Shown in pieces: positions 5,220 to 15,397 of a stretch of 25,551 nt of DNA. Source of the stretch: a virus. A program made the translations under genes and the position numbers. The stretch lies in IMG/VR virus record IMGVR_UViG_3300010883_000405, positions 1-25,551 of that record; one strand, 5' to 3'. Positions within the stretch are counted from its first letter, which is position 1; each line of letters starts with the position of its first letter. The notes below the pieces were generated by a model. The model ran no database searches. It was given only the letters and a program-made list of their open reading frames with translations, and was not told where the DNA came from.

Positions 5220-5260
5220 GATAAGGGGGGCGCGTCCTTACGGGTGCGCTCCCTATTATC
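5220..5260 (+). terminator. Strong G/C hairpin after the capsid gene, likely terminator or 3' stabiliser
   Basis: Bases 5225-5234 pair with 5245-5254 over ten base pairs, three of them G-T, around a ten-base loop. The stem extends outward with GATAA (5220-5224) pairing TTATC (5256-5260) past a small bulge. The downstream bases are T-rich but interrupted (TTTTAATTTT), so termination may be partial. It could equally protect the 3' end of abundant capsid mRNA. Confidence 0.6.
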
Positions 5261-5286
5261 TTTTAATTTTATAATCTTATCAAATC

Positions 5287-6033
5287 ATGAAACAAAGTAA
5301 ATACGTAGACAAGGTCTACAAACTCACAAGACAAGCAGCTCCACTATCGTTTATGCTGCCAACAAGAAATAGTCGTAGCTTTCCCTTAATGCATTGGGAT
5401 GAAGAGACCGGTATCAATCGGGTCTTACGTTACGCAAGGAATCAGAACTCTCCTTTTGAAGATGAACAAGACGGCAATGCTATTGTCGAACCTGTAATTT
5501 TTGAAGATGGGTTCTTAACTGTATCTAAACAGAATCAGGTACTTCAGAAATTTCTAGCTGTACATCCTTTAAATGGAAAAAAGTTTGAGGAAATAAATAC
5601 TGAGGCTGACGCTAAAGAAGATATGGAAAGTTTAAATGTAGAAGTTGATGCTTTAATAGAAGCAAGAGCTCTTCCTATAGAACAACTAGAAGTAGTATAC
5701 CGTGTTATATATGGTAGAGACTGTAGCACACTTAGCACTGCAGAATTAAAGCGTGATGTTTTAATCTTCGCTAAGAACTCTCCTGAGGCATTCTTAGACG
5801 TGCTAGACGACCCCGAGCTAAATCACAATGCCTCTACCCAACACTTCTTTGATATGGGCGTATTGGCTACCCGCAAGAACAATACGGAGGTGTGGTTCTC
5901 TACAGCTACAAATAAGAAGAAGATGCTTAGCTGCGCCTATGGTCAAGAACCCATCGCCGCCGCCGCCGCATATCTTAAAAGCGACAAAGGTATAGAGGCT
6001 CTAAAGATGCTAGAGTCATTAACCAATATGTAA
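5287..6033 (+). CDS. Conserved head-region protein after the capsid gene, function unknown
   Basis: A 248-residue soluble protein. The N-terminal third is basic and contains RVLRYARNQNSPFEDEQDGN (about residues 46-65), a stretch that looks strongly conserved and that I recall from proteins encoded just after the capsid gene in several marine and crAss-like phages. The middle (about 100-160) is Glu-rich and helical. The C-terminal third contains a motif around RDVLIFAKNSPEAFLDVLDD and an Ala-rich stretch coded by repeated GCC (around 5957-5970). No enzyme motif is visible. Its position suggests a minor head, maturation or decoration role, but this is inference. The start codon follows an AAATC leader without Shine-Dalgarno, and the gene ends just before an intrinsic terminator. 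Confidence 0.62.
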   Translation: MKQSKYVDKVYKLTRQAAPLSFMLPTRNSRSFPLMHWDEETGINRVLRYARNQNSPFEDEQDGNAIVEPVIFEDGFLTVSKQNQVLQKFLAVHPLNGKKFEEINTEADAKEDMESLNVEVDALIEARALPIEQLEVVYRVIYGRDCSTLSTAELKRDVLIFAKNSPEAFLDVLDDPELNHNASTQHFFDMGVLATRKNNTEVWFSTATNKKKMLSCAYGQEPIAAAAAYLKSDKGIEALKMLESLTNM

Positions 6034-6044
6034 ATCATATAAGA

Positions 6045-6073
6045 AGAGACCTTAAAAGGGTCTCTTTTTTTTT
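6045..6073 (+). terminator. Intrinsic terminator
   Basis: AGAGACC (6045-6051) pairs perfectly with GGTCTCT (6059-6065) around a seven-base A-rich loop, followed immediately by an uninterrupted T run to 6073. It lies 12 bases after the preceding stop and only three bases before a TATCTTTG promoter box. Confidence 0.82.
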
Positions 6074-6076
6074 ACT

Positions 6077-6084
6077 TATCTTTG
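6077..6084 (+). promoter_or_regulatory. Bacteroidota-type -7 promoter box (TATCTTTG)
   Basis: TATCTTTG matches the Bacteroidota primary-sigma -7 consensus TAnnTTTG. It sits directly after the T run of the preceding terminator and 29 bases before the ATG at 6114. No TTTG -33 element is visible at the expected 19-21 base spacing; that region is the terminator stem. The same T-run plus box arrangement recurs at 6772, which makes chance unlikely. Confidence 0.68.
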
Positions 6085-6113
6085 ACTTTTATTAATCATC
6101 TAATTTTTTAAAG

Positions 6114-6410
6114 ATGCAAAAGTACCTTAAATTCAACACCACTGCAGGTGTTCACAACGTTCCCGTCGGGAATGGATTGTATGCAGAAAAAGTCGGCCCT
6201 ACGGAGACAAGACTTTATAGCGCAGATGCTTTTTTATATCACTACAAATTGACAACTTCAGGTGGAGCTGCTCCAACAGCAGAGTTAACTGAGAGTATTA
6301 TGACAGCTTTAATTCAAGCTTCTGCTACTACTTGGCAACATCCTGAAGTAGAAGTAAGTCTTCCTGCAGGTGCAGTAGTGGCTTCTATTGCATTAACCCT
6401 ATTCTCTTAA
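6114..6410 (+). CDS. Small virion-associated candidate, paralogue A of a tandem pair
   Basis: A 98-residue protein, clearly homologous to the next gene: both share the pattern KY-(I/L), PVG-x-GL-(Y/F)-AE, (T/V)-x-(L/I)-YS, LTT-(S/T)-G, AS-x-(T/S)-W and LP-x-G in the same order. It is rich in Ala, Thr, Ser and Val, with a predicted beta-strand character and no Cys. It has its own terminator-promoter unit upstream, which isolates its expression from the head genes. Small beta-rich proteins encoded just after the capsid gene are often capsid decoration (cementing) or head-fibre components; that role is inferred from context only. Confidence 0.6.
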   Translation: MQKYLKFNTTAGVHNVPVGNGLYAEKVGPTETRLYSADAFLYHYKLTTSGGAAPTAELTESIMTALIQASATTWQHPEVEVSLPAGAVVASIALTLFS

Positions 6411-6421
6411 TCCTTGAAATC

Positions 6422-6709
6422 ATGATGAAATATATCCGTATACAATACTCTGCATCTAAAAGTGCAATAATTCCCGTGGGTCAAGGTTTATTTGCTGAGT
6501 TAACAGCAGCAACTGAGGTTAAGATTTACAGCTCTGCTGACACTACTTACTATTTCTCTCTCACTACTACAGGAGCAACCTTTGCTATGATTACAGCTAT
6601 TCAATCGGCATGTGTCCTCGCAGCTTCCACAAGTTGGGTAGACGCCGTACAAGATGTAGTTCTCCCGGAAGGAGAAGATGTTACTGACATTACAATTGCT
6701 GCATTTTAA
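6422..6709 (+). CDS. Small virion-associated candidate, paralogue B of a tandem pair
   Basis: A 95-residue protein starting 12 bases after paralogue A, with two adjacent ATG codons (6422 and 6425). Landmarks shared with paralogue A include IPVGQGLFAEL, the YSS segment, SLTTTGA and LPEGEDV near the C-terminus. The second half diverges more than the first. It is probably co-transcribed with paralogue A from the box at 6077, as no separate promoter box lies in the 11-base gap. An intrinsic terminator follows, so A and B form a two-gene transcription unit. A decoration or head-surface role is inferred. Confidence 0.6.
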   Translation: MMKYIRIQYSASKSAIIPVGQGLFAELTAATEVKIYSSADTTYYFSLTTTGATFAMITAIQSACVLAASTSWVDAVQDVVLPEGEDVTDITIAAF

Positions 6710-6739
6710 GAGTACATACTCATAACACATATTAGAAAG

Positions 6740-6768
6740 AGGGTCACTATGAGTGGCCCTTTTTTTTT
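6740..6768 (+). terminator. Intrinsic terminator
   Basis: AGGGTCACT (6740-6748) pairs with AGTGGCCCT (6752-6760) over nine positions, one a G-T pair, around a three-base loop, followed by eight T (6761-6768). It closes the two-gene unit of paralogues A and B and lies three bases before the next TATCTTTG box. Confidence 0.83.
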
Positions 6769-6771
6769 ACT

Positions 6772-6779
6772 TATCTTTG
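6772..6779 (+). promoter_or_regulatory. Bacteroidota-type -7 promoter box, near-leaderless
   Basis: TATCTTTG, preceded by T run + AC + T exactly as at 6077. The ATG of the next gene begins only four bases after the box. As the start point of Bacteroidota promoters lies a few bases after this element, the mRNA should begin at or next to the start codon. No -33 TTTG is seen. Confidence 0.7.
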
Positions 6780-6783
6780 TTAT

Positions 6784-7113
6784 ATGAACAATCTCTTACT
6801 TATACGAGACGAAACAAATAAGAAGCACTATGTCCCTTCTGATAATATTCAAAGAATATATAGGGTAGATGCTGTCACAACTAGAATCCAAACCAATATA
6901 GTTTTGTCAGTAGGGGCGGTAGGTTCACCTCCGGAGCTTGCTTGTTATGACTTCGGAGAGAGACCTCCGGGGTTAGGGGTATCAGACACCACACAGGTGG
7001 AAGCTTTTATTACTGCATGGCAAAGAGCTCTAGGTCTCTCATCAGCAACTGTAAACGTATCTCTTACAGCACCTGTATTTTCTGTTACACCGACATCTCA
7101 AAGTTGGACGTAA
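6784..7113 (+). CDS. Small virion-associated candidate, probable divergent third member
   Basis: A 109-residue protein with its own terminator-bounded promoter. The opening (LLLIRDETNKKHYVPSDNI) resembles the start of paralogues A and B: a hydrophobic strand, a polar turn, then a Pro-containing step where A and B have PVG. A TTR-I segment near residue 35 parallels their (E/T)-x-K/R-(I/L)-Y motif, followed by a Gly/Pro loop insertion. The C-terminal third (from about residue 72) repeats the AFITAWQRAL-type helix followed by strands. Homology to A and B is plausible but not certain. It may be a third decoration-type or minor head protein. Confidence 0.5.
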   Translation: MNNLLLIRDETNKKHYVPSDNIQRIYRVDAVTTRIQTNIVLSVGAVGSPPELACYDFGERPPGLGVSDTTQVEAFITAWQRALGLSSATVNVSLTAPVFSVTPTSQSWT

Positions 7114-7147
7114 TATCCTCTTAAAAAGTAGACCTCTTTTTTTTCCG

Positions 7148-7155
7148 TATCTTTG
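7148..7155 (+). promoter_or_regulatory. Bacteroidota-type -7 promoter box (TATCTTTG)
   Basis: TATCTTTG after another eight-base T run (7137-7144), with the ATG 15 bases downstream at 7171. Unlike the two preceding units, the T run is not preceded by a convincing stable hairpin: only an A/T-rich AAAAAG/CTTTTT pairing is possible. The arrangement is otherwise the same and drives the connector and tail genes. Confidence 0.62.
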
Positions 7156-7170
7156 TCTTAAAACACGGCA

Positions 7171-8142
7171 ATGATTAATACAGTTAGAAATACTGTTCTG
7201 TCTATACTTAATAAGAATAATTACGGATATCTCTCTCCTTCCGATTTTAATCTGTTTTCAAAGCAGGCGCAGTTAGAGATATTTGAAAGTTATTTCTCTC
7301 AATATAATACTCAGATAAATAAAGAGAACGCCCGCCTATCAGGTTCAGGCATTGCAAATTTATCAAAGAGTATTGAAGAGTCTATGGATTTATTTTCCAT
7401 GACTAAAGGACTGAATGTAAACACCTCGGTTGCGGGCTCATATTTTATGCCTTCGTTATTAACTACAGGAGACGACTATTACTTTCTTAATAAAGTTTTG
7501 GTATATAAAGATATAATTGTTTCGGGAAGCACCACTACTTTTAATGCATTAGGAACTAGATTGATAGATGGTTCCGCGACATTTATTGCTGCAGGCGTAG
7601 CAGTAGGAGATATTGTAGCAGTAGAAACCGTGAAAGGAGTGGTATATGGTACGGTAACTTTAGTAAATAGTGAAACAGAACTTACCACTTCATCAGATGC
7701 ATTTACTGCTGCCGGACTTTCATATGCTATTATTAAAGCAGGAACACAAAAAAACGAGGCAGAGAAAGTAACACATAGTAAGATAACAATGCTTAACAAC
7801 TCTATCTATACCGCTCCTTCTACTACGTACCCATCATATACCTCTGAAGAAGAGTTGCTTCAAATTTATCCCAATACAATTTCAACTGTAGGACGTACAG
7901 TAGCTCAGTACTTTAGATATCCCAAGACACCGAAATGGACATACATGTCCGTAGGTACGGGAGGCGAGCCTGTCTTTGACCAATCTCAAGCAGACTATCA
8001 AGATTTTGAAATCCCACTAGATGATGAGAACAACTTAATTATGATTATACTAAAGTATGCAGGTATAAGTATAAGAGAAGCTGATGTGTATACATTTGCC
8101 AAGGATGGAGAAGCTAAGGAAACCCAACAAGAAGCAGGATAA
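7171..8142 (+). CDS. Probable head-tail connector or ring protein
   Basis: A 323-residue protein immediately upstream of, and overlapping by one base (TAATG), the gp4-like tail gene. Residues 1-75 form a helical N-terminus (TVRNTVLSILNKNNYGYLSP, then FNLFSKQAQLEIFESYF) of a type I associate with structural proteins in crAss-like phages. Residues about 125-190 are a beta-rich Ala/Val/Thr/Gly segment that resembles a self-contained inserted module (DGSATFIAAGVAVGDIVAV). The C-terminal part returns to a mixed fold ending in a polar Gln/Glu tail. The gene's place between head and tail genes suggests an adaptor that joins portal and tail. No catalytic motif is seen. The precise ring it forms cannot be judged from sequence alone. 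Confidence 0.6.
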   Translation: MINTVRNTVLSILNKNNYGYLSPSDFNLFSKQAQLEIFESYFSQYNTQINKENARLSGSGIANLSKSIEESMDLFSMTKGLNVNTSVAGSYFMPSLLTTGDDYYFLNKVLVYKDIIVSGSTTTFNALGTRLIDGSATFIAAGVAVGDIVAVETVKGVVYGTVTLVNSETELTTSSDAFTAAGLSYAIIKAGTQKNEAEKVTHSKITMLNNSIYTAPSTTYPSYTSEEELLQIYPNTISTVGRTVAQYFRYPKTPKWTYMSVGTGGEPVFDQSQADYQDFEIPLDDENNLIMIILKYAGISIREADVYTFAKDGEAKETQQEAG

Positions 8143-14552: not shown

Positions 14553-15383
14553 ATGGCACAAGACGTAAGTTTACCAAAGACGCTAACCTATGACCATGAC
14601 AAAAGGGTAATGGGGTGGCCTTCGTTTTATTCATATCATCCGGATTGGATGGTGGGGATGAACAACTTTTTCTATACGTTCTATAGGGGCAGACTATATA
14701 AACATAATTCTAACCTAAACCGTAATCGTTTTTACGAAGTAGATAACGATGCATCTATAACCACTGTTTTTAATGACGGGACGTTAGACAATAAGATATT
14801 TAAAACTATTGCTTTGCAGGGAACAAATCCTTGGACAGCTACTATTACTAGTGATATACAATACACAGGTACTATCGAGGATACGTGGTTTGAAAAGAAA
14901 GAGGGGGTATGGTTTGCGTTTGTAAGGAATACGGGAGAGACTCCCGCGACAGATGCAAACTATGCTTTGCGTTCAGTAAATGGTATTGCTAACAGTACAT
15001 CCATGGACGCTTCGACACCTTCCGCTGTACTTGTAAACTACGATGTTAACGCACAAGTAAGTGGCATTATTAGTATTGGAGATTTATTATACTATGGAAC
15101 AATCCCTACGCCTCCTGCAAACCTCACGCCTATTTTATGCGGCAAGGTTACGGGTATTAATGTAGACCTACGTGCGGGAGTAAATCAGCTAGTCGTTGAT
15201 ACCACTATTACAGGAGGTGCTTTACCTACTGCACAAGTTCTATATTACCTATATGTCAAAGACTCTATTGCAGAATCTCACGGGGTACTAGGTCACTTTG
15301 CAAAAGTTACCTTAACCAATACTTCCGACACACAAATGGAATTGTTTGTTGTACAGGCAGACGCTATGAAGAGTTTCCCATAG
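14553..15383 (+). CDS. Tail-associated protein, probably linked to the stabilisation protein
   Basis: A 276-residue protein beginning 14 bases after the stabilisation-protein stop. Residues about 20-95 (GWPSFYSYHPDWMVGMNNFF, then GRLYKHN, NRFYEV and a beta-strand run up to FKTIALQG) are of a type that I recall as part of the large tail stabilisation proteins in other crAss-like phages, here encoded separately. Residues about 95-270 are strand-rich and polar (DTWFEKKEGVWFAFVRNTGE and later beta segments). No stop-codon readthrough or frameshift signal is visible between the two genes. The likely role is a separate subunit of the tail hub or of fibre attachment. The family link is from memory and needs a profile search. 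Confidence 0.58.
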   Translation: MAQDVSLPKTLTYDHDKRVMGWPSFYSYHPDWMVGMNNFFYTFYRGRLYKHNSNLNRNRFYEVDNDASITTVFNDGTLDNKIFKTIALQGTNPWTATITSDIQYTGTIEDTWFEKKEGVWFAFVRNTGETPATDANYALRSVNGIANSTSMDASTPSAVLVNYDVNAQVSGIISIGDLLYYGTIPTPPANLTPILCGKVTGINVDLRAGVNQLVVDTTITGGALPTAQVLYYLYVKDSIAESHGVLGHFAKVTLTNTSDTQMELFVVQADAMKSFP

Positions 15384-15389
15384 TTTTAG

Positions 15390-15397
15390 TATCTTTG
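15390..15397 (+). promoter_or_regulatory. Bacteroidota-type -7 promoter box, near-leaderless
   Basis: TATCTTTG lies six bases after the preceding stop and three bases before the ATG at 15401 (six before the ATG at 15404). A short T-rich stretch (TTTTAG) precedes it, with no terminator hairpin. Transcripts would start at or near the start codon. This matches the other three boxes and allows separate expression of the cupin-like gene and downstream cargo genes. Confidence 0.65.

Follow-up and report, generated by a model that had tools for sequence, protein, structure and literature searches.

Predicted overlapping terminator-promoters, conserved in layout, in the late region of tailed phages of Bacteroidota

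Introduction

In T7-type phages, a terminator (Tphi) placed right after the capsid gene lowers the flow of transcription into the tail genes. Terminator-to-start distances in T7, T3 and SP6 range from 14 to 1742 bp, and the nearness of a terminator to a promoter has been proposed to favour reinitiation (PMC11347151). Bacterial RNA polymerase can stay on the DNA after termination and restart nearby, as seen in vitro with the E. coli enzyme (PMC6978380), and in crAss-like phages, another phage group of the Bacteroidota, the late genes are thought to be read by the host polymerase (PMC10136315).

Transcript mapping in Flavobacterium johnsoniae placed the promoter box at -12 to -5, with starts 4–5 nt past it (PMC6847099). 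The same work found a weak -33 and two AT-rich motifs, one at -18 and another at -28, the latter being a matter of frequency and not a strict requirement (PMC6847099). Leaderless messages are a minority in the phylum (5.5% in F. psychrophilum; PMC9723704). Here we describe spacers in a phage late region in which a predicted terminator and a promoter box of this type appear to share one T-tract.

Results

The stretch analysed, called the window throughout, is 25,551 nt long and makes up the whole of the viral record used here (25.5 kb). It comes from a tailed Bacteroidota phage, and its gene order runs from portal through a scaffold-like gene and capsid to small genes and tail-side genes. By capsid protein, the nearest annotated records are MW202828 (66%), Maribacter phage Panino (51%) and the Flavobacterium elemo phages (45–47%), while a query of viral contigs with the same protein returned 80 relatives at 71–77% identity. 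The conservation counts given below refer to the 71 relatives with enough sequence, the window counted among them.

Downstream of the capsid gene, the following features were annotated, with hairpins, boxes and starts as predicted:

5225..5254, + strand: post-capsid terminator hairpin with a T-poor tail (-25.9 kcal/mol, z -5.4)
5257..5264, + strand: TATCTTTT, possible degenerate promoter box, with G to T at the -5 base
6041..6069, + strand: terminator hairpin 1, 13 pairs (-15 kcal/mol, z -3.75), T9 directly after
6065..6073, + strand: T9, predicted to be both terminator U-tract and promoter -18 T-tract, then ACT
6077..6084, + strand: -7 box TATCTTTG; predicted start about 6089 (+/-2) by the F. 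johnsoniae spacing rule (PMC6847099)
6114..6410, + strand: 98-aa small gene, predicted leader about 25 nt, AlphaFold2 mean pLDDT 85
6422..6709, + strand: 95-aa small gene of the same family as the 98-aa gene, own promoter not seen
6734..6766, + strand: terminator hairpin 2, 15 pairs (-18.8 kcal/mol, z -6.0), T9 directly after
6760..6768, + strand: T9, shared tract, then ACT
6772..6779, + strand: -7 box TATCTTTG; predicted start 6784, the A of ATG
6784..7113, + strand: 109-aa gene, predicted leaderless mRNA, box-to-ATG spacing 4 nt
7137..7144, + strand: T8 tract, hairpin absent, then CCG
7148..7155, + strand: -7 box TATCTTTG; predicted start about 7160
7171..8142, + strand: 323-aa virion structural gene (PHROG 14543), first of the tail-side unit

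A stable hairpin followed directly by a U-tract, the mark of an intrinsic terminator, was found at 6041 and at 6734. The third spacer, tested for a stable hairpin at 7137, has none (-1.3 kcal/mol, z +0.37), and the 7148 site would be the promoter half left on its own. A search of Rfam gave no match above the gathering score and two sub-threshold ones (E 0.23 and 0.96). These results bear out a sequence-only reading of the window, which had assigned the T-run to a terminator hairpin in two of three spacers (real at 6041–6069 and 6734–6766, the third being hairpin-free); the near-identical T-run/AC/box string that it reported at 6077 and 6772 proved to be a fully identical 20-nt string, TTTTTTTTTACTTATCTTTG. 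All three of its T-run and box strings were confirmed, but they are not strictly consecutive, since the 11-nt spacer at 6411–6421, between the 98-aa and 95-aa genes, is signal-free. Its claim that the cassettes isolate each small gene holds only in part: the 98-aa and 95-aa genes would belong to a single unit, and there is no barrier to keep 6784–7113 transcripts from entering 7171–8142.

The box TATCTTTG by itself is barely unusual (four in the window versus 1.36 expected), and an E. coli-type promoter scan of the window was uninformative (60 found versus 48 expected). Base composition favours T runs, as an artefact of chance in AT-rich DNA would have it. Nevertheless, a run of T8 or more within 6 nt of TATCTTTG was observed three times in the window against 0.002 expected over 1000 dinucleotide shuffles, and the arrangement recurs in dozens of divergent contigs; shuffles and relatives together refute a chance or compositional origin, whose probability we consider negligible. 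The fourth TATCTTTG in the window (15390–15397) lies at the end of the gene 14553–15383, 3–6 nt before the ATGATG of a 175-aa gene; comparable to it, elemoF has a box 4 nt upstream of the gene at L011:20379.

A fourth related spacer, absent from the earlier reading, lies immediately 3' of the capsid gene, where the 5225–5254 hairpin is followed by TATCTTTT. The spacer between the capsid and 248-aa genes holds a terminator or strong hairpin in 66 of the 71 relatives, mostly without a promoter box, which is present in only eight of the 71 (four with TATCTTTT, four with the full box). In the relatives, this spacer looks like a plain post-capsid attenuator.

Just upstream of the homologue of 7171–8142, a TAnnTTTG box is present in 69 of the 71 relatives, always as TATCTTTG except for two instances of TATATTTG, and the predicted leader is 10–13 nt long in nearly all 69. 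A hairpin and T-run adjoining the box were found in 62 of these 69, with the hairpin ending 11–14 nt from the box in 61 of the 62 fused cassettes. The hairpins comprise 52 distinct sequences of 9–13 pairs, whose arms covary: pairing is 99.4% with the own partner compared with 67.5% when partners are swapped. Because the arms covary across 52 differing hairpins, it is the structure, not the sequence, that is under selection. The most invariant alignment columns are the T-columns and the box.

Viral contigs were also scanned, with no protein query, for T8NNNTATCTTTG by itself; among the matches listed, 95 of 119 sites lay before the 323-aa gene. A hairpin was present at 91 of these 95, again among the matches listed, versus 16 of 171 T8 runs without the box. 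ElemoF and MW202828, at 50 kb each, carry no fused cassettes besides the pair that flanks the 248-aa gene. Sequence thus establishes the anatomy of the cassette, its conservation, its covariation and its spacing, and the earlier description of the design as deliberate is a fair one for a fused terminator-promoter that is conserved, position-specific and constant in its spacing. The overlapping layout, a predicted signal for transcription to stop and restart within about 20 bases, is strongly conserved across these Bacteroidota viruses, which form a widespread group. The combination hairpin-T8-NNN-TATCTTTG was also seen in L271 (a 412-kb viral contig), L267 and L276, where none of these genes' homologues were found just downstream.

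Could the boxes be the only transcription signals, with the hairpins serving as 3' end protection or processing sites in a late region read as one transcript? The window's post-capsid hairpin (5225–5254), with its poor U-tail, would suit such an arrangement. However, in 62 relatives a G+C stem passes straight into a T-run, the standard form of an intrinsic terminator, and the hairpins go with box-adjoining T-runs to the extent given above for the matches listed (91/95 versus 16/171), leaving this explanation improbable.

To place the predicted starts, distances from box to ATG were counted for boxes outside reading frames: none fell at 0–3, 14 at 4–5, three at 6–13 and many from 14 upwards, counts in which some sites are homologous, two or three are probably inside coding sequence and the events are not independent. 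For TATCTTTG boxes alone, 9 of 11 short distances are 4–5. The distribution, with its peak at 4–5 and hardly any boxes at 0–3 and 6–13, agrees with the start rule of F. johnsoniae, a start five bases past the box putting the A of ATG at +1 when the distance is 4. The fifth base past the box is A in 82% of cases; in the window, the predicted +1 at 6089 is T. Such spacing supports a transcription start about 5 nt past the box. On this basis, gene 6784–7113 is predicted to be made as a leaderless mRNA: its box-to-ATG distance is 4–5 nt in all four homologues found (itself, and L029, L054 and L066 at 26–38% protein identity), whose proteins align from the first residue. In L041, L068 and L090 the box also stands only 4–5 nt before the ATG of the 323-aa gene homologue, which is predicted to be leaderless there.

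These data also bear on whether TATCTTTG is a promoter at all, or a chance match or other signal beside genuine terminators. In AT-rich DNA, chance alone produces TAnnTTTG often, and the window's post-capsid box is degenerate. Against this, the box hardly varies in 69 of the 71 relatives, its distance to the ATG is quantised and an A is conserved at the predicted +1, so that terminators without promoters seem very improbable.

With regard to promoter type, TATCTTTG is the Bacteroidota -7 promoter box, conforming to TAHHTTTG at all three window sites and near invariant in relatives. The T-tract occupies -12 to -4 relative to the box, that is about -24 to -16, and gives an AT-rich motif at -18; no AT-rich -28 motif is present, those columns being the C/G base of the stem. 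A -33 TTTG (B. fragilis type -33/-7) at a spacer of 15–21 was found in only 4 of 59 fused promoters (TTG in 12 of 59), its position unconserved, and the stand-alone promoters of these phages, as listed, have no outstanding -33 TTTG. The proposal that the terminator stands in for a -33 element is not supported, as the T-run lies over the -18 motif and, with -33 TTTG mostly missing from this promoter type, fused or stand-alone as listed, nothing had to be replaced. Since it sits at the position of the Flavobacterium -18 AT-rich element, the T-tract is most likely terminator U-tract and promoter -18 element at once.

An alternative is that compaction merely squeezes terminator and promoter together, both working and the T-tract having no promoter role. 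The spacers are short throughout, and many stand-alone promoters of these phages lack a T8 run, as compaction would predict. It does not readily explain why the T-tract is retained where the hairpin has been lost (window 7148, L029, L054), nor why, in cases with a short U-tract (T6), ATTTT fills the gap to the box and the distance of 11–14 nt from the hairpin is kept. The retention without a hairpin suggests that the T-tract may at some sites be a promoter element only. Compaction also fits poorly with the Bacteroidales, in which the T8NNN-box string is enriched (27 matches versus 4 in a reversed control) with a hairpin at only 9 of 80; the hairpin-free string looks like a genuine promoter configuration there. 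We therefore regard compaction as possible and on balance unlikely. In 99 genomes of Flavobacteriales no enrichment was found (4 versus 10 in the reversed control), and hence host promoters there can do without a long T-tract. The idea that the cassette string is a host commonplace was accordingly rejected for Flavobacteriales, and holds in part for Bacteroidales with regard to the promoter string that lacks a hairpin.

The number of small genes between the 248-aa and 323-aa genes, each about 95 aa long and mostly of one family, ranges from zero to nine among the relatives, in what appears to be an expanding and shrinking cluster. L066 has nine in a row (most of one family), versus none in many relatives. 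Small-gene boxes (n = 44) include 20 fused to a terminator and 20 without a T-run. A leader motif close to TTAACCCATAAA recurs between box and small-gene ATG in L018, L025, L067 and L078, and more weakly in the window at 6089–6113. The small proteins had no Pfam family above the curated cut-off and no match in phage records; structure comparison of the 98-aa protein, whose predicted fold is confident, returned uncharacterised viral proteins only, and none of the solved chains compared reached a Z of 5. To propose a decoration or head-fibre role is thus no more than guesswork.

Discussion

Taken together, we consider it probable (roughly 0.78) that in the cassettes a terminator and a promoter overlap, both acting on the host RNA polymerase and both served by one T-tract. 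A single tract of 8–10 T, within the 11–14 nt from hairpin to box, would act as U-tract for the gene upstream and as -18 element of the TATCTTTG (TAnnTTTG) promoter downstream. At the first cassette, release of one RNA near 6072 would be followed by the start of another near 6089, and at the second the corresponding positions would be near 6767 and 6784, in both cases a step of about 17 bp. Along with the post-capsid terminator, the cassettes would split the late region into the 248-aa gene, the small virion-type genes and the tail-side genes, blocking capsid-level transcription from flowing on and giving each unit its own rate. Termination, initiation, dosage control and the identity of the polymerase we infer. 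Use of the host polymerase is suggested by the box, the one feature that points to it, and a phage factor could alter specificity.

A further possibility is a relay, in which the same host polymerase, as it often does, stays on the DNA after RNA release and restarts about 17 bp on at the next -7 box, which would lie within its reach. Messages would then be separate while the flow of polymerase along the late region was kept, and some new messages would start exactly at AUG. We hold this to be doubtful and quite unlikely.

Known parts are here in a new combination, which on present evidence is a real, highly conserved overlapping terminator-promoter. Searches of the open literature turned up no account of such an element in these phages, and a narrow phrase search for overlapping terminator and promoter found no paper. 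If both halves work, one T-tract would do two jobs in about 50 bp, offering a minimal natural insulator-promoter part for Bacteroidota, a phylum with few genetic tools, and a natural setting in which to ask whether a just-terminated polymerase begins again at the promoter that follows. Thanks to the conserved spacing, transcription units and leaderless genes may also be predicted by a sequence rule throughout a large, mostly uncultured phage group.

Compared with recycling termination and reinitiation (PMC6978380), the phage cassette has the predicted favouring condition, a promoter very near the terminator; that process was shown in vitro with the E. coli enzyme, whereas for the cassettes it is a conjecture. 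The position of a post-capsid terminator is common to T7-type phages, with their Tphi, and the phages described here. The shortest terminator-to-start distance in T7, T3 and SP6 is also, as in the cassettes, tens of bp or less (PMC11347151). By contrast, T7-type phages use their own one-subunit polymerase, while the phages here have a host-type box and a shared T-tract.

With the primary-sigma promoter of Flavobacterium and Bacteroides (TAnnTTTG -7; PMC6847099, PMC9723704, PMC7366714) the cassette shares the TATCTTTG box, an AT-rich -18, the lack of G in the two middle box positions and start codons placed for a start 4–5 nt past the box; it differs in that its -18 is a terminator U-tract, its -28 a G+C-rich stem and its -33 TTTG missing. 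Like an intrinsic terminator, it has a stable G+C-rich stem with 8–10 T directly after, but unlike an ordinary one its T-tract ends 2–4 nt before the next promoter box.
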